Of a DNA stretch of 43,324 nucleotides, positions 5,309-28,140 are shown piece after piece. The stretch's first letter is position 1, and each line of letters opens with the position of its first letter. The stretch covers positions 1 through 43,324 of the forward strand of contig NZ_QEKH01000038.1 of the NCBI RefSeq assembly GCF_003096415.1. The letters are read 5' to 3'. The notes under the pieces are model-generated. The model saw only the letters and a program-made list of their open reading frames with translations, did not search any database and was not told the DNA's origin. The translations under genes and the position numbers were made by a program. The stretch is from Victivallis vadensis (lineage in GTDB: Bacteria; Verrucomicrobiota; Lentisphaeria; Victivallales; Victivallaceae).

Positions 5309-6070
5309 CTAAGGGGCGTAGTAGGTGGACCACAGCGGAGCCGCCCAGGAGTTGCTGGAGGTAGTGGGATAATACCAGCCCTTCAAGGCATTGAAGTTGA
5401 TCTGATTGGGATTGCTGCCGTATTTCAGGGATTCCACATGGCCGTCCAGCGTGGCGAAATTGGAGGCCAGGCCGGAATGATCCCGCCGTTTTTTGTGTTC
5501 GCTCTGAAAGCGGCTCAGGCTCTTGTTGATATGCCACATGGAAGTTTCAGTGAAATTCGGGCTGGCGTATTCCATTACCATGATGCTGGTCGAGGGAGAA
5601 TCGGCACGGCTGATTTTCCCTCTGATGCCTTTTACCCCGTTTTTGGTTGCATCGAGCAGCCAGCCGTTCAACGAATAATTGGTTGTGTTCGCTCCGTATT
5701 GGTCGCCTCCGAAACCGAGTCCCTGAATATATCCGGGAGTTGAGGTCGTATTGAATACCTCCGGATTGCCGGCGCAGTACCAGAGTTTATTTCCCAAAGA
5801 GTAATTATTGCGCAGGGTCTGCATCCAGTAGAGACTGTTCCAGACCGGCCCGGTTTTTCCGGGATGAAACGGCAGGGTGTCAGCCGAGTCTCCCGAATAG
5901 AGCAGCAAGCCCTGCGCCATGCTTTTCATATTGCCTTTGCAGGTCGCAACACGGGCTGTGGCACGTGCCTTGTTCAGCGCGGGCAGAAGCATTGCGGCGA
6001 GAATCGCGATGATCGCGATCACGACGAGCAGCTCGATTAAGGTAAAACAACGATTGGAAAAGTGTTTCAT
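5309..6070 (-). CDS. Type II pseudopilin-like protein with N-methylation signal
   Basis: This 253-residue protein starts with a short basic leader and then [20 protein letters not shown], the prepilin peptidase and N-methylation signal that also forms the membrane anchor and pilin helix. The C-terminal part contains [15 protein letters not shown], the DG motif typical of the large prepilin-like families of Planctomycetes and Lentisphaerae (DUF1559-like, H-X9-DG type). Such proteins are presumably displayed on or across the outer membrane through a type II/IV-pilus-like system, but their function is unknown. An AGGAAA ribosome site precedes the ATG. The gene lies 46 bp after lacI and 25 bp before the solo beta-domain gene, which suggests a link to extracellular glycan use. 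Confidence 0.85.
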
Positions 6071-6116
6071 GGTTGAATTATTTCCTGTTTTATATGAAAT
6101 TGGGGTAAAGAGTACA

Positions 6117-7241
6117 TTATGAAATAACGCCGGAAAGGGATACCGGTTCGGCCCTGCGTATTTTTTTGTTTCTGACTGCGGACATTTTCACGGAGTTGCC
6201 CGGAATCAGTTCCAGCGGCAATACGATTTTGTAGGGCTGGTCTTCGATCTGCCGGGTGAAAATCTGCTGGTAAACCCGCTGGGCGGCTTTGATGCCGAGC
6301 TGGCGCGGATAGGTGCGCAGATGGGTGAAACTGATGTCGCCGGGGATGTTTTCGGGATTGTCGAAGGTCACGATGCTGCAATCCTGCGGGCAGTTCAGGC
6401 CGAGTTCTTTCAGGACCTCGACGGCGAGATAGGCCGCCATCGGATGGGTGGTGATCAGGGCCTCGGGACGGTCCGGCGAGGTGAACAGCTCCTGGAGCGC
6501 GGCTTTCACATCCTCATTGTCGCTGGTGGCGGAAACGCGGCTTACAAAACTTTCCGGGCCGAGTTCCTGCAAAGTTTCGATCATCGCGCCGTTCAGGCGG
6601 GCCCGGAACGAGTGGACCTTGGCGGAGCCGGACAGGAAACCGATCTTTTTGAATCCGTTCCGGATCAGGTGCCGCGCGGCGATCACGCCGCCGGTGAAAT
6701 TGTCCGCCTCCACCGAATTGATTGAAATATCGTCGCGGTCGCTGGAGATCAGCACCGGCTTCATGCGGCTGGCGACCAGGCGGTCGACCACGTCGCAGGT
6801 CGGATTGCCGATCACGATGATGCCGTCGGCGGAGAGCAGACGGTTGAAAATCTGGTCGTTCTCCTCACTGTAGCCGGCCGGATCCCAGGTGCAGATATTC
6901 ATCATCATATTGCCGTGGCGGCTGAAATAGGACTGGATGCCGCGCAGCATTTCGTCGAAATAATCCAGCATCAGCATGTTCTTCTGCTCCGCCAGCGGGC
7001 AGAGCAGCAGTTCCACCCGGTAAAGTTTGTTGTCCGCCTGTGAAATCGCGGCGGCTTTGCGCGCGATGGAACTGGCGTCGTAGCCGAGTTCATCGACGGT
7101 GTCGAGCACGCGCAGCTTGGTCTGCTCGTCGACCTGCCCGCGCCGGTTCAGCACCCGCGAGACCGTGGCGATCGAAACTCCGGCGGCTTCCGCCACCTGA
7201 GTCAGGGTCACCGGCTGCCTGACTGTTGTTTTCTTAATCAT
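6117..7241 (-). CDS. LacI-family transcriptional regulator
   Basis: The 374-residue protein has the canonical LacI helix-turn-helix at residues about 11-35 ([20 protein letters not shown]) and a periplasmic-binding-protein-like sensor domain from about 70 to 350 (for example [21 protein letters not shown]). The C-terminus carries an extra basic tail ([10 protein letters not shown]). It heads the operon with the pseudopilin, the beta-domain protein and the glycoside hydrolase, so it probably senses a sugar released by that enzyme and represses the set. Its own promoter and a perfect 12-bp palindrome lie immediately upstream, which points to autoregulation. The hinge region ([11 protein letters not shown]) is less typical than that of E. 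coli LacI. No strong ribosome site is visible before the ATG. Confidence 0.93.
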
Positions 7242-12794: not shown

Positions 12795-14702
12795 CTACGC
12801 TTCGGCGAGGCGGGCCTGCAGGCCGGAGGCGCGGCGGGTGCGGCGCTCCAGCATCAGGCGCGTGACGGCGGGCGTGCTCCAGAGCACCACCTCCTTTGAG
12901 GCGCGGGTGATGCCGGTGTACAGGAGTTCGCGGGTCAGAACCGGTGAATCGCCGTCCGGCAGCACCAGCAGCGCCCGGCTGAACCCGGAGCCCTGTGACT
13001 TGTGGATGGTCATCGCGAAAACCGGTTCATGCTCCGGGAGTTCGGCGGCGAGGAAACTGCGCTCGAAGCCGGGGAAATAGATCCGGATCGCGCCGCTTCC
13101 GGCGAGGTCTTTCCAGAAGAGTCCGATGTCGCCGTTGCTGAGGCCGGTCAGCCGGTCGTTGGCGAGGATCATCACGGGCATGCCGGGCGTGTCGTCGCTT
13201 TTCCAGTGAAAGAGTTCGCGGATGAGCCGGTTCAGTTCCTCCACGCCGAAAGGGCCGCGCCGGACGGCGGCCAGCACCTTGAAGGCGTTCAACAACCCGA
13301 ACGCCTCCGTGAGTGCTTCGGCGGTTCCGGCTTCGGCCAGCTCCGCGAGGCGGAGGAAACAGCCGCGTTTGCCGGGCAGCTCGCGCGCCAGTTCCTGCCT
13401 GAGCCGGGCGGAGAGCTGGTCGCGCGTGACGGCGATGGTGCGGAAATCATCATTCTGCTGATGGTGAATGAAGTCGGTCAATCCCTCGATTTTTTCCGGC
13501 GTCGCGCCGTCCTGAAGCAGTTTGATCGCGGAGCTGACTTCGCCGATTGCGGGCGCGGTGTCGAAACGGAAGTTGTGGGTCAGCTCCGCAAGCGCCCCGG
13601 TGAGCGGCCGCGCGTCGTCCGGTTCCGCAAGAAAGACGCCGGGCGACTGCCGCAGATAGGCTTCGCGGATCGCGCCGGAAAAGGCGTTGCGCTTCCCGGA
13701 GTCGCAGATGTCGGCCAGCACCGCGCCGGATTCGACCGAGGCGAGCTGGTTCGGGTCGCCGAGCAGGATCAGCCGGGTTTCGGGTGCGAGGGCCTGCATC
13801 AGCCGCGCCATCAGCGGCAGCGACACCATCGAACTTTCATCGACGATCACGAGGTCGAAGGGGAGCGGATTCCCGGCGTGGTATTTCGTCCGGTGCGTCA
13901 ATGGCGCGGAACCGATCAGCCGGTCGATGGTCGAGGGGGCAAGCTCCAGAATCCGGCGGCGTATCGCTTCGGCCGTGCCGATTTTGAGGCCGTCCTCGCG
14001 CAGCGCCTCGCCGAGGCGGGCCTGCGCCTTGCCGGTCGGGGCGCACAGCGCGACCCGGAGTTCGGGGGCGCGGGCGAATTCCAGCGCGAGCAGCGCCGCG
14101 ACCACCGTGGTCTTGCCGGTGCCGGGGCCGCCTGAAATCACCGTGAAGTCCCGGCTTGCCGCCGCCAGCGCCGCCAGCCGCTGGAAATCGGGCCGGTCTT
14201 CTGCCGCTCCGTTGCGGTAGTTGATGAAAAGTGCGTCGAATGCTCCCGGGGGCAGTTCCGGCGGATGTTCCGGGCGGCGGGCGCGGTGCATGACCGCCTG
14301 CGCAACCTGAAGCTCGTACACCAGATAGCGTTGCAGATAGAGCCGCCCGGCGTCGTCGATTGCCAGCGGAGTCGGGAAGCCCGCGTCGCGGCAGGCCGGA
14401 TAACGGCTGACCGCGGCGGCGAGGGCGGGAGCGGACAGCCGTTCGAGCCAGGCATCGCAACCGGGAAGCCGGAACTGCCGCTGCCCCTCGGCGGGAGTTT
14501 CCGGAAACAGCATCCCGGCCAGCTCCCGCAGCGGGCAGCAACTGTGGCTCAGGCGGACCGCGCGGGAGGCGAACAGCGCCGCAAGATAAAGCTCCTCACA
14601 CTCCGGCGCGCGGGCGAAACGGAGCATGAAGTCGGCGAACGCCAGATCGATCGGTTCAAATTCGCCGGTGGCGGCGCAACGTTCGGCAAATGGCTGTTTC
14701 AT
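12795..14702 (-). CDS. recD: RecBCD enzyme subunit RecD (5'-3' helicase)
   Basis: The 635-residue product has the RecD layout: an N-terminal RecB-binding domain (1-120), then a superfamily 1B helicase with Walker A GGPGTGKTT (191-199), motif II VIVDESSMVSLPLMARLM, a GDPNQLASVESGAVL motif and the C-terminal TIHKSQGS and YTGITRAS motifs. It is close to E. coli RecD in length (608). RecD drives the fast 5'-3' motor in the RecBCD complex that resects double-strand ends. The ATG overlaps the recB stop (ATGA), so the gene is translationally coupled. It is the last gene of the glycosylase-recC-recB-recD operon and converges on the KdpD-like gene with almost no gap, and I see no terminator between them. 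Confidence 0.96.
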   Translation of the reverse strand: MKQPFAERCAATGEFEPIDLAFADFMLRFARAPECEELYLAALFASRAVRLSHSCCPLRELAGMLFPETPAEGQRQFRLPGCDAWLERLSAPALAAAVSRYPACRDAGFPTPLAIDDAGRLYLQRYLVYELQVAQAVMHRARRPEHPPELPPGAFDALFINYRNGAAEDRPDFQRLAALAAASRDFTVISGGPGTGKTTVVAALLALEFARAPELRVALCAPTGKAQARLGEALREDGLKIGTAEAIRRRILELAPSTIDRLIGSAPLTHRTKYHAGNPLPFDLVIVDESSMVSLPLMARLMQALAPETRLILLGDPNQLASVESGAVLADICDSGKRNAFSGAIREAYLRQSPGVFLAEPDDARPLTGALAELTHNFRFDTAPAIGEVSSAIKLLQDGATPEKIEGLTDFIHHQQNDDFRTIAVTRDQLSARLRQELARELPGKRGCFLRLAELAEAGTAEALTEAFGLLNAFKVLAAVRRGPFGVEELNRLIRELFHWKSDDTPGMPVMILANDRLTGLSNGDIGLFWKDLAGSGAIRIYFPGFERSFLAAELPEHEPVFAMTIHKSQGSGFSRALLVLPDGDSPVLTRELLYTGITRASKEVVLWSTPAVTRLMLERRTRRASGLQARLAEA

Positions 14703-17700
14703 GATTCCTCCGGGCTGATCAACGCTTCGAGCGCGGTGACGAGTTCAAAATCGGGCCGGGTGAAGAATACGCCGTCGCCGTTGGGAGGCTGTCCGGCCCG
14801 GATGCCGCGCAGAAAAAGGTAGTAGACGCCGCCGAAGCGGTCGCGGTAATCCTCCGCATCGAACTTCCCGAAGGTGCGGCGCAGGAATTTGACCAGCGCG
14901 ACCGTATAGAAGAGGTATTGCAGGAAGTAATAGCTGTGGCTCATCGCCGCCGGGAGCTGGGCGGGCGTGAAGTTGGCAGGTTCGCCGTCGAGCCGGTTGG
15001 TTTTCCAGTCGACGAGGCTGTAGCGGTCGCCGGAGGCGGTGCGGCGGCGGAAAACCAGATCGATAAAGCCGTTCAGGAAGCCGCCGTCCACCGGGGTGTT
15101 CCACTCCGGCCAGTCGGTGAAGCGGAACTCCCGCTCCGCATAGTCTCCGAGCAGTTCCGCGATCTCGCCGGTGCGGAATTTCCGCCCGAAGCCGAACAGG
15201 AACCTGAGTTCCGAGAGGCGGTCGGCGCGCCCGATCTGCGACAGGGTGAAGCCGTCGCCCTGCGCGTCGTGCAGCGGGGCGCGGCGGGTGCGTTCGACCA
15301 TCGCGGCGACCGCGTCGAGCCGCTCGCGGTCCGCGCCGGAACCGTCGCCGGCCAGGAGTCCGTAGAAGCGCAATTTGCGCGCCGCCAGCTCCCGGAGCGT
15401 GTCGAAAGGGGCGGTAAAATCCAGCTCTTCAAGGATTTCATGCACCGCATTGCCGAAGGCCTTGCCGCCCGGAAGCGCGAGGGCCGGATTCTTCTCCGGC
15501 GCGGTTTCGGACAGGGCGGGAAGCTGTTCCTCGGGCTGGCTGTCGTCGTGGTCCGCGCCGTCGTCGGCGGGATCAAGCCGCCCGGAAGCCGCCGGGGAGA
15601 GCGAGGAAAAGCTGGCGATCCGGTAGTGGTCGCGCAGCACGCGATGATTCCACTCCCACGGCGCCAGCTGCCGGCTGCGGTCGAGTTCGGGGCGGTAAAC
15701 CTGCGTGGAAACCGGCAGGGTTTTCTCTTCAAGCTCCACCGGCAGCAGCCGCGGCGCATCCTTTCGCATTTTCAGGAACCGGGTCGGATGGGCCGCTTCC
15801 TCCGGCGTCGCCTCGCGGAACTTGACGAGCCAGTCCAGCGGCGAATTGCAATAGCTGCTCGCACCGTCTTTGCCCCACAGCACGTGACAGCGGTATTTGG
15901 CGCGGGTCAGCGCGACGTAGGCGAGGCGGAGGTTTTCCATTGTCGCCTCATCGTGTTCGCGCTCGTTCATTGAACCTGCGGCGTGCAGTTCATAGACCAG
16001 ATGCCCGTCCTCATGGAAGTTGCCTCCCGGCGAACGGCTTCCGGTCGCGAAGCGGAACAGCGAGGGCAGGATCACCACCGGGTACTCCAACCCCTTGCTG
16101 CTGTGGACGGTGGTGATTTTCACCGAGTCGCGGTCGCTTTCGAGAATCTGCTTGACTTCGTCGGAACTGTCGTCGATCCGCCCTTCGACCGCGTCGGAAA
16201 GGAAATTCAGCAGTGCATTGATGCTCAGCTTGCGGCGGCTGCTCTCCTGCTGGAGCAGGTCGCCGAGCTGGTGGAGGTTGGCCAGCTTGCGCTCGCCGCC
16301 CTCCTGACGCGCGAACCGGGCGGGAATGTCGAAGTATTTGAGAAGGCCGGAAAACATCACGATAAAGGTCTCCGGCCGCCACTCCCGGCGCAGCCGGGCG
16401 AAAGCGGTCTGATGCTCCGCAAGCTCGTTGCTCCCCTCCTCCGAACCGAGCCGCAGCAGTTCGGCAAGGCCGCACCCTCCCAGACCGGTCGCCAGCGCCG
16501 CCAGCACTTCGCCGCTGCGTTCCGGCGCGGCAATTGCCGCCAGCACGGTCAGGAGTTCGCGCGCCTCGTCGCTGCGGTAGACGCTTTCGCTGTTGGAAAA
16601 GACCGACGGGATCATCCGCGCCGCCAGCAGCGGCTTCAGGGCGTAGGCTTCGCTCCACTTCTTGACCAGAATCGCGATGTCGCCGGGGCGCAGCCGCCGT
16701 TCGGGAGTGTCGCTGCGCGGCGGAATATGCAGCGTGTCGTCACAGAGCAGCGCATTGGCGATTTCGACCGCCGCCGCAAGGCAGGCGTCGCCGTCGGAGT
16801 CGGGGAGGTCGGTGATCCGCAGCGGGCGGCGGTCCTCGCGTCCCGCGACCAGCAGCGCGGATTCCGGGCGGTTGCCCAGTTCCGGTTTGGCCGGAGCGGA
16901 AATCTCCGGCAGCGTGATCCGCTCCGACGCGAAGGGCGACGCATGACGGCTGAACAGCAGATTGACCGCTTCGATCATCCCCGCCGCCGAACGGAAATTG
17001 CGGGTCAAGGTGTATTTGGCTCCGCCGTAACGGAATACGTCGTCCGCGGCGCGGTTGTAGGTGTCGATGTCGCCGCCGCGGAAGCCGTAGATCGCCTGCC
17101 GCGGATCGCCGACCAGAAAGAGGGTCGCCGCCGGCACCGCGCCGCCGGGTTCGGCCGGATCGATGAATATCTTTTTGAAGATCGCATACTGGATCGGGTC
17201 GGTATCCTGAAACTCATCCACGATCCCCAGCGGATACTGCTGCTGAAGGCTCCGCTGCAACCGGCTTTCCGGCTCCATCAGCGCCCGGTGCACGTCGCGG
17301 ATCATATCGTCGAAGGTCTGCAGGTTCGCCTGCTGCTTGGCGCGGTCGTAAGCGGCGAGCAGTTCCTCGACCGCCGCCAGCAGCACCGTGTCGCCGAACC
17401 GGGGCGCCAGTTCGGCAAGCTGGAAAATACGCTGCAATTCAGATTGTTCGAGTATTCCGGCAAGCGCCTCCTGCCGCTGTTCCAGAGCGGCGAACTGCGA
17501 CGGCGCGCCGGATTTTTTGCGCGCGCAGAGAGCTTCGGTGAGCGCCTCCGGGGTGAAAGCGGCGAGCAGTTGCAGGAACTCCCCGGTCGGCACACCATCG
17601 GCCCGGAATTTCTCATACGCCGCGATGAACCGGTCAAAATCCTTGCCGCTGAATGGCTTGTTGAATAGATAAGGGAAATTGGCCAGACACTCCGGCAGCT

Positions 17701-18406
17701 CTTCCCGGCGCAGTTCGCCGAAGCCCTCCGCCAGTTCTTCGAGATCCGCCGCCGGATCGGTTCCGGCTTCGGCGTTGGAGCGGATCACAAGATCGGGGCG
17801 GGCGATCCGCCGCAGCGCCAGTTCGGCAAGACGTTCCGCCGTGTATCCGGCCTGACGCAACAGCGCCTGCCGCAGGGCGCTGTGCCGGGCGTCGTCGTCG
17901 GGGTAGAACTCCCGGCGGTAGAGGTCGTCGGCGAGTTTTTCGAGCAGTTCGGCGCAGTCGTTGTCCAGCTCTCGGCTGAACAGGATGCCGCTTTCAAAGG
18001 CGTTTTCGCGCAACACCTTCTGACAGAAGCCGTGGATGGTCGTGACCGTCGCGGCGTCGAAGTCGAAGAGCGCGGTGCGCAGCCGTTTCCGGCACTCTTC
18101 AGAAGTCAGCGTTTCAAGGGCGCGAGCGACGAGCTGCGCTTCGCGCCCCGACTCGGGCGGCAATCTCTTTTCGAGTGCGGCGAGCGTGCCGGAGAGCACC
18201 TGCCGGATGCGGCCGGCGAGTTCGGCCGCCGCGGCGCGGGTGTAGGTGACCACCAGCAGTTTTTCAATCGGGATATCCCGCTCCAGCACCGCGCGCACCA
18301 CGAGATTCTGGATGTTGTAGGTCTTGCCGGTCCCGGCGGCCGCTTCGATCAGGAAGAGGCCCCGGAGCGGGCAGTTCAGCGAATCAAGCTCCTGTACCGG
18401 CGTCAC
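14699..18406 (-). CDS. recB: RecBCD enzyme subunit RecB (helicase-nuclease)
   Basis: The best start is GTG at 18406. It overlaps the recC stop as GTGA and has AGGAGG 6 nt upstream, whereas the longer reading from 18451 has neither. The product is then 1235 residues, with Walker A AAAGTGKT (22-29), the UvrD-like motifs VTYTRAAAAELAGRIR, VDEFQDTDPIQYAIF, GDPRQAIYGFRGGD and TTVHSSKGLEYPVV, and an ALTRAKYR motif. The C-terminus carries the RecB nuclease domain with GFIDLVFRR and SLVDWKTNRL, where the Asp and Lys of the D-x-K motif are intact. It is the 3'-5' motor and nuclease of RecBCD, acting in repair of double-strand breaks and degradation of foreign DNA. Co-translation with recC and recD fits assembly of the heterotrimer. 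Confidence 0.97.
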   Translation of the reverse strand: MTPVQELDSLNCPLRGLFLIEAAAGTGKTYNIQNLVVRAVLERDIPIEKLLVVTYTRAAAAELAGRIRQVLSGTLAALEKRLPPESGREAQLVARALETLTSEECRKRLRTALFDFDAATVTTIHGFCQKVLRENAFESGILFSRELDNDCAELLEKLADDLYRREFYPDDDARHSALRQALLRQAGYTAERLAELALRRIARPDLVIRSNAEAGTDPAADLEELAEGFGELRREELPECLANFPYLFNKPFSGKDFDRFIAAYEKFRADGVPTGEFLQLLAAFTPEALTEALCARKKSGAPSQFAALEQRQEALAGILEQSELQRIFQLAELAPRFGDTVLLAAVEELLAAYDRAKQQANLQTFDDMIRDVHRALMEPESRLQRSLQQQYPLGIVDEFQDTDPIQYAIFKKIFIDPAEPGGAVPAATLFLVGDPRQAIYGFRGGDIDTYNRAADDVFRYGGAKYTLTRNFRSAAGMIEAVNLLFSRHASPFASERITLPEISAPAKPELGNRPESALLVAGREDRRPLRITDLPDSDGDACLAAAVEIANALLCDDTLHIPPRSDTPERRLRPGDIAILVKKWSEAYALKPLLAARMIPSVFSNSESVYRSDEARELLTVLAAIAAPERSGEVLAALATGLGGCGLAELLRLGSEEGSNELAEHQTAFARLRREWRPETFIVMFSGLLKYFDIPARFARQEGGERKLANLHQLGDLLQQESSRRKLSINALLNFLSDAVEGRIDDSSDEVKQILESDRDSVKITTVHSSKGLEYPVVILPSLFRFATGSRSPGGNFHEDGHLVYELHAAGSMNEREHDEATMENLRLAYVALTRAKYRCHVLWGKDGASSYCNSPLDWLVKFREATPEEAAHPTRFLKMRKDAPRLLPVELEEKTLPVSTQVYRPELDRSRQLAPWEWNHRVLRDHYRIASFSSLSPAASGRLDPADDGADHDDSQPEEQLPALSETAPEKNPALALPGGKAFGNAVHEILEELDFTAPFDTLRELAARKLRFYGLLAGDGSGADRERLDAVAAMVERTRRAPLHDAQGDGFTLSQIGRADRLSELRFLFGFGRKFRTGEIAELLGDYAEREFRFTDWPEWNTPVDGGFLNGFIDLVFRRRTASGDRYSLVDWKTNRLDGEPANFTPAQLPAAMSHSYYFLQYLFYTVALVKFLRRTFGKFDAEDYRDRFGGVYYLFLRGIRAGQPPNGDGVFFTRPDFELVTALEALISPEES

Positions 18407-21400
18407 TGCAGAACCTCCTGCGGCTGTTTTGGATAAATCAGATCGGCGCAACGGAACACCAGTTCGAGGAACGCCTCGTCGTTGAAATCCTCCGGCCGGA
18501 AACAGCGATGGAAACCTTCAAGGTTGTCCAGCGGGAAGTCGAAGGGGCCGGGATCGAACTTCGCCAGCGCCGCGCGGCGTTTCGCCTCCGGTTCATCCTT
18601 GGCCGAACAGGCGCTGGAGAAGTAAGCCGCCAGCGGCAGCGGACGGCTCAGGCCGTCGCGGAAAAGTTCCAGCAGCCGTCCCAGTTCCGCTTCCGCAACA
18701 TCCGGTTCAAATTCCGGAAGTTCAACGACTTCTACGCTGTCCTTGATGAAGAAGCCGAGCGAGCGCGCCGGGATGTTTCCGGCATTGCGCACCGTCAGCA
18801 GCAAATGGCGCAGCCGCAGCCGCAGAAGGTGCTTCGGCGAGGAGCCGGAGCCATGCACGAAAAGCTGTGTCGTCCCGTCCGGCGACAGGAACATCGAACC
18901 GGTTACGGTGATCCCATTCGTTTCAACCGCAAAGGGTTCCGCATGGCGTTCGGTCAGCAGCGCGTATTGTTCCGGAGTCAGCGCGGCGACCTGGCGGCGG
19001 GCAGTTTCAAATTCATTCCTGCCCGCGCTGCCGAGTGGAAGCTGTCCTCCCGCCAGCATCAGCCGGTAGGCAAGCTCGCCTGACGGTCCTTCATCGGAGG
19101 AGAGCCGCCAGTCGAGCAGCCGGTCCCGCACCTGATAACTGCCTAAGCCGTCGAGGGTAAACGGTTCCTTGTCTTCGGGCGTGCAGCGGTCGGTGCGAAA
19201 ACTCAGGCCGACACGGTTGCGCAGGAAGTATTCCGGGTGATTCAGGAATGCGCGTTCCAGTTCCGCAAGTTCGAGCACCGGCGGCAGCGGTTCGGGCCGG
19301 AGGGTGAAGGGGAGCCGGCTTTCCGGCTCCGCGCCGCCTGCCAGATAGCCGTGCAGCGAACGGGCGGCGCGGAAGTATTCCGGCGAATAGCAGCGCAGCT
19401 CCGCGCCGTTCGCCGGGTCGAAATAGCGGAAATTGAAGCTTTGCAGGGAGTGGCGGATCACTTCAAAATCGCGGAAACTCGCCTTCAATACGTCGATCAG
19501 GTCGGCCAGCGGCACCGCCGGAGGCCGTTCCTCAAGGGTCAGGGGATCGCTGCCGTGGTAGAACAGCATCAGAGTGCGGCGCGCCGCCAACAGGGCTTCG
19601 AGGAACAGATAGCGGTCCTCCATCTGGCGCGAGCGGTCGCCGAGCCGCCGGTCGCTCATGATGTTGAAGCCGAGCCGGATATCCCTTCGCGGGAACTCCC
19701 CCTCGTTGAGGCCAAGCAGCGCGACCGCCTGCATCGGGATGCTCCGCAGCGGCACCATCGAGCAGAAGGTGATCCCGCCGCGCAGGAAGGGCATATTGTT
19801 CTGTACGAGGCTGAAACTGTCGGACAACTGGTCGGTCACAGCCTCGAGGGGAAGCGGTTCATCGCAGTTCCCGTCGCGAGCCGCCGCCGCAAAGGCGTCG
19901 ATCGTGCCGCGCAATGCGGTGATTTCCGGCAGCGACTCCTTGTCAGGGCGGAAGAAGGTATCCACGGCATTGTGAAAGAGTTGCGCCCACGCTTCGGCGG
20001 AGTGGGCGTTGCCGGTGCGTTCGCCGAGTTCCGCAAGCGAGCTTACAAACGACACGAACCGTCCGAGCAGTTCCGCATCGCTCCCCTCGGCATTGCCGCA
20101 TGGCAGGTACTCCCCGTTGACCAGTTGGTCCTCCGGGGCGGTCATCGCAAAACCGAGCAGCAGCCGGTCGAAGCCGCAGCGCCAGCTGAATTCCCCGAAT
20201 TCAAAGTCGCAGAAACGCCGCCGCGCCGCCGCGTCGTAGCCCCAGCGGATCGCGCTTTGCCCGACCAGTTCGCGCAAGGTTTCCATCTCCGCGTCGGCGA
20301 TGCGGAACTTCTGCCGCAGGGCGGGCGTGTCGAGCAATGAAAGGATTTCGGAGGCTTCGAACCGCCCGGAAGCCTGCCGCAGCAGCTGCAGGAAAGTTTC
20401 CGCGATCAGGCTCTCCTGCCGCAGGCTGCGGTCGGAGATGCCGTAACGCCCTTCAAAGGTTTCGTCGTTGAACACCGCCCGGATGTACGGTTCATAGGCG
20501 TTGATGTCGGGAGCCATCACGATCACGTCGCGCGGCTGGACGGCGCCGTTGCTTTCGTCGAACAGGCGGATCAACTCATCTTTCAGCACTTCAAGTTCGC
20601 GCCGGATGGTGTGGCAGCTGTGGACCCGGATCGAGCGGTCGCGCCGGTAGTCGATTTTGCGGGTGCGGCCGACTTCGACATCGTCCCCGTCCGGACCGCG
20701 CCGTCGCATCCGCAGGATATCCTCCTGAATGGTCTGGAGCATGGTCGCGCCGGGGTAGGCGAGCGATTCGCTTTTCTCCGGCACGAAACTGCGGAAGAGT
20801 TCGGCCGAGCGCACCCGGGCCAGCTCCGGCAGCTCCAGCGTCTGCGCGAAGAAGCTCCGCCCCTGCGCGCCGAGGCTGGTGAGCAGCGGATTCTCCACAT
20901 CGGTGTTTTCAAAGACGCCGCTGTTCTTGTCGGCGAGACGGTCGCGGAAACGCTTCTCATAGGTGTCCCAGAATTCGCGGCAGGGGTTCAGATAGAAAAG
21001 ATTGACCTCGGTGATCGCGGAGAGGTGCCGCAGGAAATTCAGATAGAGCGGCGGCATGGTGCCGACCCCGAACACGCTGATCCGCACCGGCACGCGGCTC
21101 CACAGATCGCGCTCCGGCACCCGCTCGAAGAATTTGCGGAACCAGCCGTAGGGACCGGTGAACCCTTTCGCGATTTCCCGGTACAACTGCTGCTGCCACA
21201 CATAACGCCCCGGTTCTTCGCCGCGCCGCCACGCTTCGAGCAGGTCGCCGCGGTAGACCTGGTACTGGTCGAACAGATCGGCGATGCGCCCGGCGAGCTG
21301 CCGCCGCTTGCGGACCGGTTCGGAGCCGGTGAGATAGCGATCCAATTCCGGCCAGCGTCCGGCGGATTCTCCGAGCAGCCGGAAGATCCGCCACGCGGCG

Positions 21401-21690
21401 ACCTCCGGCGAAAAGATGCGGCACTCCCGGTTGAACGCCTCCAGCTCCTCGCGCGGCAGCAGTTGCCGCATGGTCTTTAAAATGAAACTCTGCAGGAACG
21501 GCATGTCGAAGTTGGCCATGATCGAGCCGTCGCGCGCCATCTCCTGCTCCAGCCAGGTGGCCATGCCCTGTGTCTGCACCACCACGGTTTCCGGCACGAA
21601 AGGATCGGGACCGGGGCGGTCGAAGATCATCCGGCGGAAGATTGCGGCGAGATCCTCAAGTTTGTTGCTGGAGTAGAGGTTGAAGTTCAT
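18403..21690 (-). CDS. recC: RecBCD enzyme subunit RecC
   Basis: The 1095-residue product matches RecC, an inactivated helicase-like scaffold that splits DNA strands and recognises Chi in E. coli. Visible RecC features are the start FNLYSSNKLEDLAAIF, VVVQTQGMATWLEQEM (about 36-52), the central SIRVHSCHTIRRELEVLKD, VIVMAPDINAYEPYI and the region MQAVALLGLNEGEFPRRD, followed by RQMEDRYLFLEALLAAR. The length is close to E. coli RecC (1122). The ATG at 21690 overlaps the glycosylase stop (ATGA) and its TGA overlaps the recB GTG. Whether the Chi pocket reads the same sequence cannot be judged here. Confidence 0.96.
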   Translation of the reverse strand: MNFNLYSSNKLEDLAAIFRRMIFDRPGPDPFVPETVVVQTQGMATWLEQEMARDGSIMANFDMPFLQSFILKTMRQLLPREELEAFNRECRIFSPEVAAWRIFRLLGESAGRWPELDRYLTGSEPVRKRRQLAGRIADLFDQYQVYRGDLLEAWRRGEEPGRYVWQQQLYREIAKGFTGPYGWFRKFFERVPERDLWSRVPVRISVFGVGTMPPLYLNFLRHLSAITEVNLFYLNPCREFWDTYEKRFRDRLADKNSGVFENTDVENPLLTSLGAQGRSFFAQTLELPELARVRSAELFRSFVPEKSESLAYPGATMLQTIQEDILRMRRRGPDGDDVEVGRTRKIDYRRDRSIRVHSCHTIRRELEVLKDELIRLFDESNGAVQPRDVIVMAPDINAYEPYIRAVFNDETFEGRYGISDRSLRQESLIAETFLQLLRQASGRFEASEILSLLDTPALRQKFRIADAEMETLRELVGQSAIRWGYDAAARRRFCDFEFGEFSWRCGFDRLLLGFAMTAPEDQLVNGEYLPCGNAEGSDAELLGRFVSFVSSLAELGERTGNAHSAEAWAQLFHNAVDTFFRPDKESLPEITALRGTIDAFAAAARDGNCDEPLPLEAVTDQLSDSFSLVQNNMPFLRGGITFCSMVPLRSIPMQAVALLGLNEGEFPRRDIRLGFNIMSDRRLGDRSRQMEDRYLFLEALLAARRTLMLFYHGSDPLTLEERPPAVPLADLIDVLKASFRDFEVIRHSLQSFNFRYFDPANGAELRCYSPEYFRAARSLHGYLAGGAEPESRLPFTLRPEPLPPVLELAELERAFLNHPEYFLRNRVGLSFRTDRCTPEDKEPFTLDGLGSYQVRDRLLDWRLSSDEGPSGELAYRLMLAGGQLPLGSAGRNEFETARRQVAALTPEQYALLTERHAEPFAVETNGITVTGSMFLSPDGTTQLFVHGSGSSPKHLLRLRLRHLLLTVRNAGNIPARSLGFFIKDSVEVVELPEFEPDVAEAELGRLLELFRDGLSRPLPLAAYFSSACSAKDEPEAKRRAALAKFDPGPFDFPLDNLEGFHRCFRPEDFNDEAFLELVFRCADLIYPKQPQEVLQ

Positions 21691-22196
21691 TGCGTCTCCC
21701 GGAAGCGGAGCATTTCGCGGAAAGCGGCGAGCTTCTCTTCATAGCGGAGCCGCGCCGCCGCCGGGCTGGTGGAGGGAAGCGCGAGGATCGTCAGTCCGGT
21801 GCGCCCGAAAAGTTCGGGATAGTGCCGCTTCAGGAGCTTGTGCGAAGTCGAACCGTTGCAGCCGATCGCGCGAATGCCGGGACATCGCGCGAGGAGTCCG
21901 GGAATGTCGTTGGGGCGGTGTTCGCGGATTGCGGTGTCGAGGCTGCCGGGCCGCACGCCGGAGCCGACCACATCCCACAGCGCCACGCGGTTTCGCCGGA
22001 GTTCGGCAAGCCGTTCCCCGTAGGGAAGGAGGTGATCGAAGCCGAACAGCTCGCCCATGATCCGCCAGAACGCGTTGCGCGGATGCGCATAATACTGCGC
22101 CTGCCGCAGCGATTCGTCGCCCGGCAGCGAACCGAGAAACAGCAGCTCCGCATCGGGCGCCGCCGCCGGCGGAAACGAATGTTTGGTCTCTTCCAT
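21687..22196 (-). CDS. Hypoxanthine-DNA glycosylase-like protein (UDG superfamily, family 6)
   Basis: With the ATG at 22196 (GGAG 5 nt upstream) the protein has 169 residues. A longer reading from 22235 would overlap the promoter and is unlikely. It has the family-6 signature LFLGSLPGDESLRQAQYYAHPRNAFWRI split over residues 18-45, then ALWDVVGSGVRPGSLD, IGCNGSTSHKLL and the second UDG motif ALPSTSPAAA. Members remove hypoxanthine (deaminated adenine) from DNA in base-excision repair. The family is my assignment from the motifs, and a general uracil glycosylase-like activity is the alternative. The gene is the first of an operon with recC, recB and recD, with a 4-nt overlap, an uncommon neighbour for recBCD. 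Confidence 0.85.
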   Translation of the reverse strand: MEETKHSFPPAAAPDAELLFLGSLPGDESLRQAQYYAHPRNAFWRIMGELFGFDHLLPYGERLAELRRNRVALWDVVGSGVRPGSLDTAIREHRPNDIPGLLARCPGIRAIGCNGSTSHKLLKRHYPELFGRTGLTILALPSTSPAAARLRYEEKLAAFREMLRFRETQ

Positions 22197-22222
22197 TTGG
22201 CTCCTGCTTTGCTTAACACGGT

Positions 22223-22251
22223 AACATACAGTCAAAGGGGATTTTTTTCAA
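22223..22251 (-). promoter_or_regulatory. Sigma-70-type promoter of the glycosylase-recCBD operon
   Basis: On the minus strand TTGAAA (22246-22251) is followed after 17 bp by TATGTT (22223-22228). Transcription would start near 22216, about 20 nt before the ATG at 22196, which supports that start codon. Confidence 0.55.
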
Positions 22252-22271: not shown

Positions 22272-22300
22272 TTGAAAAAACAGGCGACGGATGGTAGAAT
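22272..22300 (+). promoter_or_regulatory. Sigma-70-type promoter of the three-paralog operon
   Basis: TTGAAA (22272-22277), a 17-bp spacer and TAGAAT (22295-22300) lie about 40 bp before the ATG at 22344. The promoter is divergent from the recCBD promoter, with about 20 bp between the two -35 boxes. Confidence 0.6.
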
Positions 22301-22343: not shown

Positions 22344-24413
22344 ATGGTGAAAACCGGGCAGTGGAAAGTTACGGCACAGACGTTGTTTTTTCTGTTGACG
22401 CTGTCGGGGACGGGCGCTTATATTGTCGGTTCCGCCGCCGTGGCGCTTTGCGCATGGGGGATACCGGTTGACCGGGCCTTTTCCGGTGATTTTGAAGCAG
22501 CTCCACTGCTTTTGATTTTTGGGGGCGCTGGAACGGTGTTCTGCTTCCTGTGTCTGCTGGGGCTGTTTTTCCATCAGAAGTGCCGCGAAAGTCATGTCGG
22601 GCTTCTGATGCGGTGGTATGTGGTCTGGGCTTCGCTGCTGTTTCTGCTTGCGGAGGGGGGCGCATGGCTGGCGGAGTCCGGGCCGGGGATGGCAGGAGTG
22701 GCGCTTGTATTCCTTACTGTGGTTCTGCCGTTGGCGGCGCCCGGACGGCCGGATTGGAAGCACATTGCTCTGGTCTGCTGTAATTTTCTGGGATGGAGCG
22801 GGGGGATTCTGGTTCTGGCGGTGACCGGAGATTTTGCCCTTTCCGCCACAGATTTCGGTTTCATAAGCAGGATGAGCGTCTGTTACCGGTATCCGGCGGC
22901 ATTCTGCTTCGGTATCCGGGATTTTTTACGGATTTCCGGCGGCGGCTGGGGTTGGTTCTTCCTGGCCGGGCTGCTGTTGCTGCAGGGCGGGTATCTGGCG
23001 AGTGCTGCGCTTTGGGCGGGGGCGGATCGGGTGAACATGCGGCGGTTGTTCGGGAAAGGTGTATTGACATTGTGGGGAGCGGTGGCTTTCTGCTGGCTGT
23101 TCTCGCTGGGAATGGCGGCGTATTCTGCACGGCAGGCGGAAGCGGCATGGCTGGCGTTGGAAAAGCGGTTCGGCAGGCCGCCGACGGTGGTGACACTGAA
23201 GCGGGAGTTTTACCGGGATAACATTCCTGATCCGGAGTTCTGGAATCGTGTGAAAAGGTTGGCAGGTGTGGCCCGCCAGTTGATTCAGGATGACAGGGAA
23301 CCGTGGTATTTTATACCGGAACCGCGTTGGTTCCGGCTGTCGCCGGAAGAATTAAAGAAGCTCAGCAGCAATTTCGCCGCTTCAGAGGCATGGAACGAGT
23401 GGGTGCGGTTGTTTTCCGGAGAGCTTCCGGCGGAAGCGCTGAATTTTCAAACATCTGTACTATGCAATGAGTCCTCGGCCGCCCCGGAATTGATTCGTGC
23501 CTTTTGTAGTCTGGCACTGTGGAGAATTGCAAGTACTCCGGCAGGCGGGGATCGGGAAGGGGCATTGCAGTGTTATCGTTCCATGAAAAACGGCTGCCGA
23601 TATCTTGAAAAGGCGCCGAATGTTATTTACCCGCTGGTCCGGTTTCGATGCGAAGCGCTTCGACTGGATGCGTTGGAACTGCTGTTGGAAGCGGGGACAG
23701 GTTCCGCCGATTGGCTGGAACAGGAGGCTGAGGAACTGCAGGAGCTGAGGGCGCGTAGCATTGTTGCTGAGGAACAGGGATTTTTTGCGTATGTGGCCGG
23801 GGAACTGGATGCAATGGATTCGGCGGCACATACCGGGATACCGCCGGTGACGCAACTCTCTTATCTGCCGCTTTGTCCGCGGGCTTTGAGATTTTTCTTC
23901 CCGCAGTTCCGGTGGTATTGCTCTGCGGACCGGATGGAACTGATGCGGATGTGCGATGTCCCGGCTTTCCGAAATATGCGGGGAGTGGAGGTGATTGGAA
24001 AGCCGTACATGTTCACCGGGCGGGCGGTCGTCGTAGGGGATTTCATCAGAAAGAGGTTTGCCGTATTGCAGGCTCGTTACCGGGCGATGGAAATATTGGC
24101 GGCGGCAGAGCTTCATAAACGTGAAACCGGCGTTTATCCGGAGAAAATCGAGCCGATGCCGCTTGACCCCTTTGGTGAAAAAACGTTGCGATACCGGATC
24201 GGTGATTGTCCCGTTCTGGAATCAAGCCGGCGGGCGGCCCCGGCTGACGCTGCCGGATATTCCGGTTATGAAATGCAGTATCGTAAAGTCCCCGCCGTAC
24301 AGGTATGGAGCATCGGTCCCAACGGAATTGACGAGGATGGCTTGGGCGGTTACGATGAAGCTGCCCGCAGACAGTGTGATGATATCCGGGCGATTGTGAG
24401 GATCGGAAAATGA
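22344..24413 (+). CDS. Unknown membrane protein, tandem paralog 1 of 3
   Basis: The start is ATG 22344. The frame is open much further upstream, but that part is a shadow of the divergent glycosylase gene. The protein has 689 residues: about seven hydrophobic helices in the first 256 residues (about 11-36, 53-76, 87-108, 114-131, 139-160, 201-224, 233-256), then a soluble mostly helical part. Family motifs are EKRFGRPPTVVTLKREFYR, PDPEFWNR, LDALELLLE, FFPQFRWYCSADR and YRAMEILAAAELHKRETGVY. The end has DPFGEKTLRYR and VWSIGPNGIDEDGLGGYDE. This last module is like the C-terminal end of prepilin-like proteins of Planctomycetes and Lentisphaerae (a P-x-DPF-G-x-x-L-x-Y box followed by S-x-GPNG-x-D). 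I do not recognise the whole family. Its stop overlaps the next start as ATGA. A cell-envelope role is inferred from topology only. Confidence 0.85.
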   Translation: MVKTGQWKVTAQTLFFLLTLSGTGAYIVGSAAVALCAWGIPVDRAFSGDFEAAPLLLIFGGAGTVFCFLCLLGLFFHQKCRESHVGLLMRWYVVWASLLFLLAEGGAWLAESGPGMAGVALVFLTVVLPLAAPGRPDWKHIALVCCNFLGWSGGILVLAVTGDFALSATDFGFISRMSVCYRYPAAFCFGIRDFLRISGGGWGWFFLAGLLLLQGGYLASAALWAGADRVNMRRLFGKGVLTLWGAVAFCWLFSLGMAAYSARQAEAAWLALEKRFGRPPTVVTLKREFYRDNIPDPEFWNRVKRLAGVARQLIQDDREPWYFIPEPRWFRLSPEELKKLSSNFAASEAWNEWVRLFSGELPAEALNFQTSVLCNESSAAPELIRAFCSLALWRIASTPAGGDREGALQCYRSMKNGCRYLEKAPNVIYPLVRFRCEALRLDALELLLEAGTGSADWLEQEAEELQELRARSIVAEEQGFFAYVAGELDAMDSAAHTGIPPVTQLSYLPLCPRALRFFFPQFRWYCSADRMELMRMCDVPAFRNMRGVEVIGKPYMFTGRAVVVGDFIRKRFAVLQARYRAMEILAAAELHKRETGVYPEKIEPMPLDPFGEKTLRYRIGDCPVLESSRRAAPADAAGYSGYEMQYRKVPAVQVWSIGPNGIDEDGLGGYDEAARRQCDDIRAIVRIGK
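24301..24413 (+). repeat. Near-identical gene-end repeat, copy A
   Basis: These 113 bp match 26286-26398 with four substitutions and no gap, offset 1985 bp. They encode the GPNG-x-DEDG end of paralogs 1 and 2. A further exact 24-bp match follows in the next gene starts (24438-24461 and 26399-26422). Confidence 0.9.
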
Positions 24414-26398
24414 AGCGATGGTTGACAAGGTTGACTCAGTGGCGGGTATCGGCTCCGGCGGCTTTTTTCCTGCTGACTCTCTGGGGATTGGGATGGTATA
24501 TCGTCTATTCGTTGTTTCTGTTTCTGCTGGTGCCGGGGTGGCTCGACTTTCTGCTGGACTGTGATGATTTGCGGCTGTTGTTGGCAGTTCCGTACTGGTG
24601 TTGGATCATTACCGGCCTGGGGGCAGTCGGGGCGATGCTGCTGTTTTTTCACAGGATTGCGCAACAGGTCTGTTCCGGTTGGCTGATGCGGTGGTGTGTG
24701 GCGTGGGGGACAGGAGTGCTGCTTGTGCTGTTGACGGCGGCGGAAAACTGGAGTACTGTTGAACCGACAGTGATCTGGCTGGCCCGCTGTTTGGTGACAC
24801 TGGTGTTTCCGTTGTTGATTCAGAAAGAGTTGAACCGCCGGAGCGTTGGTCTGGTCTGCGGCAATTTCCTGTGCTGGAGCGGAGGCATGTTTCTGGTCGG
24901 TATCGTGTGGACCGGATTGTTGCTCCGGGGAGGATGGGTTTGGGAAGCGGTTGAAGTCCGGCAGAAACTTGGGACTTTCATTGAAATCGATCAGGCTGCC
25001 GCAGGTTTTCTGCGGCTTTCCGGTTCCGGATGGGCGTGGCTGCTGCTGGCCGGACTCCTGCTGCTCTTGGCCGGTTATGGATTTACTGCGGTGATTTGGG
25101 CGGAAGCGGAAGGGGTGAAGTTGCGCCGGATGTTCGGAAAAAAGGTGGTGGTGCCGTGGGGAATGGCGCTGTCCTGCTTTGTGTTTTCTCTGCTGTTGGC
25201 TTTATGGGCTTCACAGGAGAGCGAACGGGACAAAACGGCATTGGAACGGCGGTTCGGATATCCGCTGACCTCGGCCGGGTTGCGGGAAAGGTATTGCCGG
25301 AGCGGTTCTCCCGATCCGGAATTCTGGAGCAGACTGGCGATGGCGCGGGAGGAGGTCGCCCGGCAGACTGCCGGGCCGCTGGAGGAGTTCTGCAACCGGA
25401 GTCCGCGCTGGTTTCAACTGCATTCGGAGGAGTTGGAACGGCTCAGGGAGGGATTCGGCTTCTGTGAGAAACCGTTGCAGGAACTGGACCGGGCATTCGG
25501 CGGAGTCCTGCTCCGGGGGGAGCGGCGGCTCTCAGAAGAGGAGGCAGTGCAATTTGAAGATTGCTGCGGAGAAATCATCCAGTCTTATCTGCTCTGGGGC
25601 TTATGGCGGCTCCGGTCGGCGCTGGCGGAACAGGATGGTGAATCGGCGCTTGCAATTTACCGGAGAATGGAAAACTGCAATACTGTCGGTATTGTGAACT
25701 GGATATCCGGTGTGGGATGGATCAGTGGCGAGGAAAAACGGCTGGATGCTTTGGAGTTGTTGCTGGAATCCGGTTTGTGTTCTTCCGGCTGGTTGCGGCA
25801 GGAGGGGGAAAAGTTGGCGGCTTCGGAGAAGAAGATCGATGAAATAGAGGAGGAAGCGTTCTATGCCGACGTGGTTTTTATATTGGATGCTCTGGAAACG
25901 GAGGCAACTCGTGAAACAGTGAAAGCCGGATCGTTTTCATATCGAGTGGCGCAACCGGGAAAATTGCGGTTCCTTTTCCCACAGTTGTGGTGGTATTGCG
26001 CAGCGGACCGGCGGACTTTGCTGCAGGCATATAACGTTCCGGGACTGCGGGATGTGCCGGAGAAGGAGCTGGAACGAAAGCCCTATGTGATTTGCAGTAT
26101 CGTACTGCCGGGGACAAACGGATACGGCAACCGGTTCCTGATGCTCAAGGCGCGCTGCCGGGCCATGCGGGCGCTGATTGCCGCCGAACTGAGCAGGCGG
26201 GAGAATGGAGCCTGGCCGGAGAAACTTGAGCCGATGCCGATTGACCCTTTCAGCGGCAAACCGTTGCTTTACCGTGCAGGAACGCAGGTATGGAGCGTCG
26301 GTCCCAACGGAATTGACGAGGATGGCTTGGGCGGTTACGATGAAGCTGTCCGCAGACAGTGTGATGATATCCGGGCGATTGTGAGGATCGGGGAATGA
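24410..26398 (+). CDS. Unknown membrane protein, tandem paralog 2 of 3
   Basis: The 662-residue product has the same layout as its neighbours: N-terminal hydrophobic helices up to about residue 265, then the motifs ERRFGYPLTSAGLRERYCR, PDPEFWSR, LDALELLLESGL, FLFPQLWWYCAADR and CRAMRALIAAELSRRENGAW. The terminal module (PIDPFSGKPLLYR, WSVGPNGIDEDGLGGYDE) is complete. It starts 4 nt inside paralog 1 and ends 4 nt inside paralog 3. Its last 113 bp are nearly identical to the last 113 bp of paralog 1 (four differences), although the rest of the two genes is much more divergent, which suggests gene conversion at the ends. The function is unknown. Many leucine and tryptophan residues in the first half fit a polytopic inner-membrane protein. 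Confidence 0.85.
   Translation: MKRWLTRLTQWRVSAPAAFFLLTLWGLGWYIVYSLFLFLLVPGWLDFLLDCDDLRLLLAVPYWCWIITGLGAVGAMLLFFHRIAQQVCSGWLMRWCVAWGTGVLLVLLTAAENWSTVEPTVIWLARCLVTLVFPLLIQKELNRRSVGLVCGNFLCWSGGMFLVGIVWTGLLLRGGWVWEAVEVRQKLGTFIEIDQAAAGFLRLSGSGWAWLLLAGLLLLLAGYGFTAVIWAEAEGVKLRRMFGKKVVVPWGMALSCFVFSLLLALWASQESERDKTALERRFGYPLTSAGLRERYCRSGSPDPEFWSRLAMAREEVARQTAGPLEEFCNRSPRWFQLHSEELERLREGFGFCEKPLQELDRAFGGVLLRGERRLSEEEAVQFEDCCGEIIQSYLLWGLWRLRSALAEQDGESALAIYRRMENCNTVGIVNWISGVGWISGEEKRLDALELLLESGLCSSGWLRQEGEKLAASEKKIDEIEEEAFYADVVFILDALETEATRETVKAGSFSYRVAQPGKLRFLFPQLWWYCAADRRTLLQAYNVPGLRDVPEKELERKPYVICSIVLPGTNGYGNRFLMLKARCRAMRALIAAELSRRENGAWPEKLEPMPIDPFSGKPLLYRAGTQVWSVGPNGIDEDGLGGYDEAVRRQCDDIRAIVRIGE
26286..26398 (+). 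repeat. Near-identical gene-end repeat, copy B
   Basis: This is the partner of 24301-24413. The exact 24-bp match continues into paralog 3 at 26399-26422, so the repeat spans a gene junction. Recombination between the two copies would remove exactly one gene. Confidence 0.9.
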
Positions 26399-28140
26399 AG
26401 TGGCGGGTATCGGCTCCGGCGGTTTTTCTGGGGGTGACGCTGTGGGCGGTTGGCGGATATGTGGTTTTTTCCGGCATATCGTGGCTGTTTGCGCTGGGAG
26501 TACCGGTCTGGAAGATGGCCGGCTGGTGTGGCGGAGTGGTTCCGCAGCTCCTTTTCTGGTCAGGCTGCGGGCTGACGTTTTTGCTTCTTTACCTGATTCT
26601 GGCGTTTTATCAGCGGTTTTGCGGCAAAAGCAATGTGTTTCTGATCCGCTGGTGCGTATGGCTGCTGACACCGTTGTTCCTGCTGGTCGCTCTGCTGCCG
26701 GGAAAAGTGGAAACAGCGGCGGGAAGTTCGATTCTGTTTTTGGGGCTGATCCTGCCGCTGGCGGCAACGGAAAGTTTTGACAGGAAAAATATTGCGTTGA
26801 TCATCGGCAATTTCCTGTGCTGGCTGTCCGGGGGAGTGATTTTGTATTGCATCTGGGATTTCATTATACAGACTGGCGGATTTCAGGAAATGTGCTTGCA
26901 TGGCCCTGATGAACCGGACGTTTTCCATTGGTTCGGCATCCAGCGTTTCTGGCCGATTTACGGATATGGCTGGAGTCTGTTCGGGTTGGCCGGGCTGCTG
27001 TTCCCGGCGGGCGGATATTTCCTGACCGCTGTATTGTGGGCGAAACTGGATCAGGTGGAAGTGCGTTGCATGTTCGGCAGAGGAATATGGATGCTGTGGA
27101 GTGCGGCGTTCGGCTGCTGGCTGTTTTCGGCGGGAATGATGCTGTATGCGGAAAAGGGGGAGGCGCAGGCGCGGCAGGCGTTGGAACTGCGGTTCGGCAG
27201 GCCGCCGACTGCTGCATCGCTGAAAACGGGCTTTTACCGGGGACGTCAGCCCGATCCCGGATATTGGAAACAGATCAAGGCAATGGAAAAGCGGATCAGC
27301 GCGGAGCTTGAATGGGGTTTCGGCCGGTCGGCACGTCCGGAAACTTTGCCTACGGAAAAAAAGGAGAGGCTCAGAAAAATTTTCAGCTCTTCCGACTGGA
27401 CCAGATGGGAACAGACATTTGCCGGTGCCATCCCTCTGGAAAAACTGGAGTTCAGAAAAGCCGAAGTCGGGGCTGAATATAATGATCTTGGGACTTTGTA
27501 CACTTACAGCAGACTGGCTTTCCTGCGGATTCAGTCGGCAGCGGAGGAGGGAAAGGCGCAGGAGGCGCTGTACTCCTGTGAAACCATGCGGAATGTATGC
27601 CGCCATCTGGAAAATGTGGCAGGCCCCGCCTACGGCAACGCATGGATTACCTGCGGACAGCACCGGTTGGATGCGATGGAACTGCTGTTGAAGTCCGGCC
27701 TCTGCCCGGCGGAACAGCTCCGGCGGTGGGCGGTGGAACTGCGGAAGATGGAAACCTTGATTACCGTGATGGAGGAACGCCAATTATTTGCGGAAGCCGT
27801 CATCGCTCTGGATCTGTTTGATATGTTCACCGGAGAGGGCGGAATGATATCGGGGGCTGCCGGTGAGTACCGGCCGTTGCCGTACCGGACGTTGAAATTC
27901 TTTCTTCCGCAGCTCTGGTGGTATCTGACGGTGGATCGGACGATGATGCTGCAACTGTACAACGTTTCCGATCTGCGGGAGGTATCGGCGGAAAGAGTGC
28001 GGGGCGGAACGTATGTTTACAGCGGAATGTCCCTGACGCCCGGAGAAACCGTCAAGGAGAGATTTCTCCGGCTTGCGGCCCGCTGCCGGGCTGTGCGCGA
28101 GCTGACTGCCGCTGAACTGCCGCCGTTCAGCGGGCGGTGA
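26395..28140 (+). CDS. Unknown membrane protein, tandem paralog 3 of 3, shortened C-terminus
   Basis: The product has 581 residues. It keeps the hydrophobic N-terminal half (to about 255) and the family motifs ELRFGRPPTAASLKTGFYR, PDPGYWKQ, LDAMELLLKSGL, FFLPQLWWYLTVDR and CRAVRELTAAEL. It then stops at PPFSGR. Relative to paralog 2 about 20 codons are missing just before the DPFSGK box, and everything after that box (the GPNG-x-DEDG module) is gone. The stop lies in the 3' end of the convergent recN gene with a 14-bp overlap, so the end may have been lost by a deletion fusing it to recN. Whether it is still functional is unknown. The frame is otherwise intact. Confidence 0.8.
   Translation: MKWRVSAPAVFLGVTLWAVGGYVVFSGISWLFALGVPVWKMAGWCGGVVPQLLFWSGCGLTFLLLYLILAFYQRFCGKSNVFLIRWCVWLLTPLFLLVALLPGKVETAAGSSILFLGLILPLAATESFDRKNIALIIGNFLCWLSGGVILYCIWDFIIQTGGFQEMCLHGPDEPDVFHWFGIQRFWPIYGYGWSLFGLAGLLFPAGGYFLTAVLWAKLDQVEVRCMFGRGIWMLWSAAFGCWLFSAGMMLYAEKGEAQARQALELRFGRPPTAASLKTGFYRGRQPDPGYWKQIKAMEKRISAELEWGFGRSARPETLPTEKKERLRKIFSSSDWTRWEQTFAGAIPLEKLEFRKAEVGAEYNDLGTLYTYSRLAFLRIQSAAEEGKAQEALYSCETMRNVCRHLENVAGPAYGNAWITCGQHRLDAMELLLKSGLCPAEQLRRWAVELRKMETLITVMEERQLFAEAVIALDLFDMFTGEGGMISGAAGEYRPLPYRTLKFFLPQLWWYLTVDRTMMLQLYNVSDLREVSAERVRGGTYVYSGMSLTPGETVKERFLRLAARCRAVRELTAAELPPFSGR

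Follow-up and report, generated by a model that had tools for sequence, protein, structure and literature searches.

Three tandem membrane proteins of Victivallis vadensis with a predicted seven-helix anchor, a predicted outer helical domain and, in two of them, a GspG-like module

The window analysed here, a stretch of 43,324 nucleotides, is contig C38 (NZ_QEKH01000038.1) of the 5.2 Mb genome of the gut bacterium Victivallis vadensis. Between positions 22344 and 28140 it carries three consecutive genes for paralogous membrane proteins, and the tandem arrangement with four-nucleotide coupling that a first-pass annotation had described is borne out: the open reading frames have exactly these coordinates, the ATGA overlap occurs twice and the products are mutual best homologs. 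The layout is as follows.

22272..22300, + strand: sigma-70-like promoter match, TTGAAA-17 nt-TAGAAT, with TG before the -10 (extended -10); consensus match only
22344..24413, + strand: gene 1 (P0001, 689 aa), seven predicted transmembrane helices, helical domain predicted to be extracytoplasmic and GspG-like C-module (open reading frame, family alignment)
24410..24413, + strand: ATGA shared by genes 1 and 2 (sequence)
24410..26398, + strand: gene 2 (P0002, 662 aa), seven transmembrane helices, helical domain and GspG-like C-module (open reading frame, predicted model)
26395..26398, + strand: ATGA shared by genes 2 and 3 (sequence)
26395..28140, + strand: gene 3 (P0003, 581 aa), polytopic anchor and helical domain, C-module absent (open reading frame, alignment)
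28127..28140, + strand: final codons of gene 3, overlapping the 3′ end of recN, which lies on the minus strand and has its stop at 28127

The frame of gene 1 is open upstream of 22344; in the alignment, the starts of the homologs fall in the same methionine region as this position. A common promoter had also been proposed, and a single promoter-like match does lie 44 nt upstream of gene 1, which, as a match to a consensus, is weak evidence. The genes are surrounded by those for UDG, recC, recB and recD and by recN; a functional link to recBCD, UDG or recN was considered and rejected, these being ordinary genes, and no gene neighbour recurs in the relatives.

As mutual best homologs in the genome the paralogs share 39% and 33% identity with gene 2 (E 6e-101 and 9e-72), and in a maximum-likelihood tree of 30 family members the three proteins form one clade with support 99/98; they therefore arose by duplication within this lineage. 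The underlying alignment begins at the transmembrane region, and some of its 30 members are fragments or truncated. More distant members are encoded elsewhere in the genome (contigs C2, C13 and C18). Of 100 related genomes, 28 contain relatives, in some cases matching in the C-module only, and, at E 1e-10, relatives were found in 20 of 194 genomes of the phylum, all of which belong to the class of the window; nine close members are 26–42% identical to gene 2. The family had been called unrecognised, and it has kept that status after a search for a named family matching over the full length: neither Pfam nor NCBIfam nor PADLOC yielded a significant family match over P0001–P0003, the full family profile retrieved only non-specific membrane proteins from the PDB (best E 0.04), aligned relatives matched named families weakly and in a scattered manner, apart from T2SSG/TIGR01710 in the twilight zone, and no description of such proteins was found in the literature searched.

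Most of the motifs listed for the soluble part in the first reading are present as given. FGxPxT is found in all three genes; PDPE-x-W and LDALELLLE are found in two, gene 3 reading PDPGYW and LDAMELLLK at these positions. The FxPQ..WY motif is separated from DR by three residues and not by two. The DPF..L.Y and GPNGIDEDG ends occur in genes 1 and 2 only, that is, in two of the three paralogs as described.

The N-terminal part of gene 2 is predicted to form the membrane anchor.

24455..25213, + strand: seven transmembrane helices of gene 2 (about residues 16–268), N-in/C-out (prediction from model and charge bias)

Structures were predicted with the loci retrieved by the genome searches left out of the input. 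The AlphaFold2 model of gene 2 (pLDDT 76.6, pTM 0.72, 21 sequences in the alignment) places seven membrane helices within residues 15–282, followed by a helical soluble domain, a long helix at residues 560–599 and short strands. Loop charges over the 30 members (K+R versus D+E) are 2.9/0.9 for the N-terminus, 0.8/1.1 for L1, 2.1/0.3 for L2, 0.03/0.2 for L3, 1.1/0.2 for L4, 1.3/2.4 for L5 and 2.7/0.6 for L6, and this bias alternates along the loops as expected for N-in/C-out. Thus model and charge bias both agree with the original count of about seven N-terminal helices, and the soluble part is predicted to be extracytoplasmic. Seven hydrophobic helices, where most relatives have a single anchor, could suggest that this part is a transporter or membrane enzyme for which the outer domain is regulatory. 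However, conservation of the transmembrane part is poor, with many gaps in the alignment, and both invariant columns of the alignment fall in the soluble part; moreover, other relatives manage with one transmembrane helix or a signal peptide, and no convincing Pfam or PDB match was obtained, which makes a transport or enzymatic role of the anchor quite improbable.

Between the anchor and the C-module lies the domain that all three proteins share.

25214..26086, + strand: alpha-helical repeat domain of gene 2, predicted to be extracytoplasmic (about residues 269–559; model and profile comparison)

With the full gene 2 model, Foldseek gave no match below E 0.001. VIA-align paired the helical domain with designed repeats, 14-3-3 and TPR proteins, generic helical repeats reaching Z 10.7; these matches are read as a common arrangement of helices and not as functional ones, and a TPR_16 match in one relative is weak (E 0.2). 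A pilus-assembly or signalling fold, to which the first-pass annotation had looked for a role, was thus not recovered for the middle domain in the Foldseek and VIA-align comparisons, which matched generic helical repeats only.

The C-terminal module of genes 1 and 2 resembles a known domain.

24045..24410, + strand: C-terminal GspG-like module, gene 1, carrying an inter-strand insert (profile match E 1.1e-19)
26087..26395, + strand: long helix and beta module resembling the globular domain of GspG, gene 2 residues 560–662 (sequence profile and model)

Searched against PDB sequences, the C-module profile of the wider superfamily described below gave seven matches, all seven to GspG-type pseudopilins (best E 0.0018), and against 23 GspG sequences of Lentisphaeria it reached 94.9% probability; these sequences were chosen by their leader motif and hence cannot serve to test it. 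With the C-module profile of the window family alone, only 41% was reached against GspG, so the sequence link to GspG runs through the wider superfamily. Genes 1 and 2 themselves lie below Pfam detection; the fused relative L075 passes the Pfam T2SSG cut-off (34.5 versus 21). The module is modelled with a pLDDT of 86.5, and with this model Foldseek ranks EpsG first (E 0.25, probability 0.89), while the top rows of VIA-align are GspG, PulG and EpsG at Z 6.8–7.3, followed by pilins; most top rows superpose at 1.8–2.6 Å over 73–80 residues, PulG (1t92) at 2.0 Å over 74. A Z of 7 alone is middling, and the weight comes from sequence, Foldseek and VIA-align agreeing on one family. Sequence and predicted fold identify the C-module of genes 1 and 2 as the globular domain of GspG, the major pseudopilin of type II secretion (T2SS). 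The likeness to GspG/PulG/EpsG (Pfam T2SSG, PF08334) extends over the helix of the module, ...NG.YP..L..., DPF.G..L.Y, ...YS.G.[DN]... and the final D. In GspG of EHEC, Ca2+ is held by the side chains of D117, T122 and D125 (PMC3396595). The G-x-[DN]..D pattern is kept in 28 of 40 members and other residues of the loop vary; the members have D or N at the position of GspG D117, genes 1 and 2 both having N, and most of them, genes 1 and 2 included, keep the final D. The module may be metal-stabilised, as pseudopilins are.

The first reading had called this end prepilin-like, which holds for the globular part in genes 1 and 2 but not for the rest: a prepilin leader (G^F-T-L-x-E followed by transmembrane alpha1-N) was found in none of 40 members, so the likeness is limited to the globular part and "prepilin-like" does not mean pilin. 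Whereas GspG carries leader and alpha1-N, the module of the window proteins follows seven transmembrane helices and a domain of about 290 residues. That the proteins are genuine, if unusual, pilins or pseudopilins, which the GspG-like C-module alone would favour, is for these reasons hardly credible. A pilin-type fold together with an alpha-helical domain is also known from the minor pseudopilin GspK; there, the additional domain interrupts the pilin fold and the protein has a prepilin leader, while in the window proteins the alpha domain precedes the module.

A less literal connection to type II secretion deserves more weight. The proteins could be accessories or regulators of the pseudopilus, the GspG-like module docking on or imitating GspG on the outer side of the inner membrane, with substrates or the tip handled by the helical domain; apart from the nature of the module itself, this would fit with the organism encoding its own GspG and with the occurrence of GspG in all 27 genomes of the phylum sample that contain a superfamily member versus 47 of the 69 without one (p 3e-4). 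This co-occurrence looked like strong evidence for a functional link, but it is largely explained through genome size: among genomes of 2.3–3.2 Mb the association falls to p 0.07, and the lineages are not independent. Further, neither the window genes nor any examined relative adjoins a T2SS gene cluster, a module that is not directly preceded by transmembrane alpha1-N cannot polymerise in the manner of pilins, and some copies have no module at all. An accessory role in type II secretion is thus conceivable but unlikely.

The soluble part is not confined to the class of the window. Gene 2 alone, used as query in a scan of species genomes, retrieved nothing, and a narrower alignment gave matches; the second scan yielded 15 loci outside the close family. 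Most of these encode proteins of 400–600 aa in which one transmembrane helix or a signal peptide is followed by a helical middle and the ending DPFSGKPLxYR...YSVGPDGxDDGG, and they come from Planctomycetota, Armatimonadota, Akkermansiaceae, Hydrogenedentota and Acidobacteria (L078–L089; signal-peptide-like N-termini in L084 and L088). When the whole soluble part was compared by hhalign with ten single-TM or secreted proteins of other phyla, the probability was 99.7% (E 2e-26, 371 columns); split, the middle without the C-module reached 95.5% and the C-module alone 99.4%, compared to 0.4% for a mismatched middle-versus-C control. Likewise, family members (e.g., L037, L049 and L051; E 8e-7 to 5e-6) are recovered by an HMM that covers only the middle and contains no Lentisphaeria sequences, and FGxPxT lines up with R.xGxP.T..EL, which in the other-phylum proteins lies right after the one transmembrane helix. 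As judged from these comparisons, the whole soluble part of the window family is homologous to the multi-phylum superfamily; the likeness covers the FGxPxT equivalent, the helical middle, the C-module (genes 1 and 2) and the habit of forming tandem arrays, which recur with up to five members (L087; others are L040, L080, L081, L084 and L122). The single-TM proteins differ in having one transmembrane helix or a signal peptide instead of seven helices, and are only about 16–20% identical to gene 2. The paralogs represent one local branch of this unnamed bacterial superfamily, whose members are widespread and duplicate in tandem. The fusion of a polytopic part with a pseudopilin-type module, which had seemed unexpected, is accordingly real but no isolated case, since the soluble part sits on several anchors in several phyla: one transmembrane helix, a signal peptide, another polytopic part (the planctomycete L077) or a BlaR1-type M56 protease (L075).

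The last of these proteins gives a hint at function. In L075, two GspG-like copies flank a helical region that lies C-terminal to an M56 (BlaR1) domain, so that the helical/GspG-like unit occupies the position of the BlaR1 sensor, and the gene adjoins one for Penicillinase_R (E 3.4e-25). It is thus a membrane protein with the same helical and GspG-like parts as the window proteins, which differ from BlaR1-type sensors in that P0001–P0003 have no Pfam M56 match and no adjoining repressor gene. The hint at sensing comes from this one distant fusion. Each gene product is pictured as a membrane-anchored extracytoplasmic protein in which seven transmembrane helices would hold the helical repeat domain of about 290 residues on the outer side of the cytoplasmic membrane; the final helix of the domain would, in genes 1 and 2, continue into the GspG-like beta module, and the two together may constitute one exchangeable extracytoplasmic module, used with various anchors in several phyla as a platform for binding or sensing proteins or ligands. 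Such a unit on a seven-helix anchor is favoured because the block moves between anchors, is predicted to lie on the outer side, bears no enzyme signature and in one case replaces the BlaR1 sensor; we consider the chances of this reading about even.

A broader proposal is more tentative, and we hold it to be possible rather than probable: the superfamily may have taken the globular domain of GspG from the filament to cap the end of a helical receptor outside the cytoplasm. Mounted on single-TM, seven-TM and BlaR1-protease anchors and expanded in tandem, this receptor would represent a new class of envelope sensing or binding modules. The module itself shows the pseudopilin globular domain in use beyond pili and secretion machines, within a large superfamily unnamed in databases; if binding or sensing is true, the module would be a common envelope device of planctomycete-like bacteria. 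For these phyla, an annotation as "GspG-like" need not denote a pseudopilin.

The tandem copies are themselves changing, as seen from a tract shared by genes 1 and 2.

24300..24413, + strand: gene-conversion tract of gene 1, 96.5% identical over 114 bp to 26285–26398 (DNA comparison)
26285..26398, + strand: gene-conversion tract of gene 2, partner of the gene 1 tract (DNA comparison)

Outside these last 114 bp the two genes are near 52% identical, and at third positions identity is 97% in the last stretch and near 45% in the remainder. The near-identical ends are the result of a recent gene conversion of about 114 bp, and the common GPNGIDEDG end hence counts as one observation and not as two independent conservations. 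Gene 3 breaks off in the region where the C-module starts, and the module is also absent from L036 and other relatives; it has been lost repeatedly and is dispensable in some copies. Between relatives dN/dS is 0.23–0.52, indicating a constrained but loosely constrained protein, consistent with weak constraint.

In the favoured binding or sensing reading, tandem copies that diverge fast and occasionally recombine could provide different binding specificities in the envelope. The same features might also describe envelope proteins of fast turnover that serve no one common client, paralogs subject to birth and death which are kept for variability (e.g., surface variation or decoys) or are decaying. 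Tandem arrays in many lineages, the gene conversion, the truncated gene 3, a decayed copy in this genome, of which the membrane half is left on contig C4 (G000:C4:191865-192590), the low identity among the nine close members and the upper end of the dN/dS range all agree with such turnover; against it stand dN/dS below 1 in all pairs, a soluble core conserved across phyla and intact operon coupling, and the variation is compatible with a binding function as well. We regard turnover without a common client as rather unlikely.

Gene conversion has linked genes 1 and 2, which are 96.5% identical across a 114-bp tract (24300–24413 versus 26285–26398 of the window); beyond this tract their identity is about 52%. 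Elsewhere in the same genome, on contig C4 (191865–192590, about 5866–6591 of locus L066), lies a decayed copy of the family, the membrane half of which looks intact and is followed by stops and loss of frame.

Among the relatives, L053:6153–8348 and L076:2330–4240 appear, as judged from sequence, to carry a GYF_2-type domain at the N-terminus, ahead of the transmembrane helices; Pfam reports no such domain in either. In a rumen member of the Lentisphaeria, the gene at L034:8762–10054, upstream of a family member, encodes a linalool dehydratase/isomerase domain (match to PF18566 at E 6.7e-34). In the wider superfamily, an Armatimonadetes locus (L087:1–5959) holds five members in tandem within 6 kb, and in L075:1059–4297 a Penicillinase_R repressor gene is followed by one for an M56 (BlaR1) protein, with its helical region flanked by two GspG-like modules.

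Other genes of the window include:
5309–6070, minus strand, genuine prepilin-type protein with an N_methyl leader and weak DUF1559, unrelated to genes 1–3
12795–22235, minus strand, recD, recB, recC and one gene of the UDG superfamily, packed closely together and overlapping at their ends
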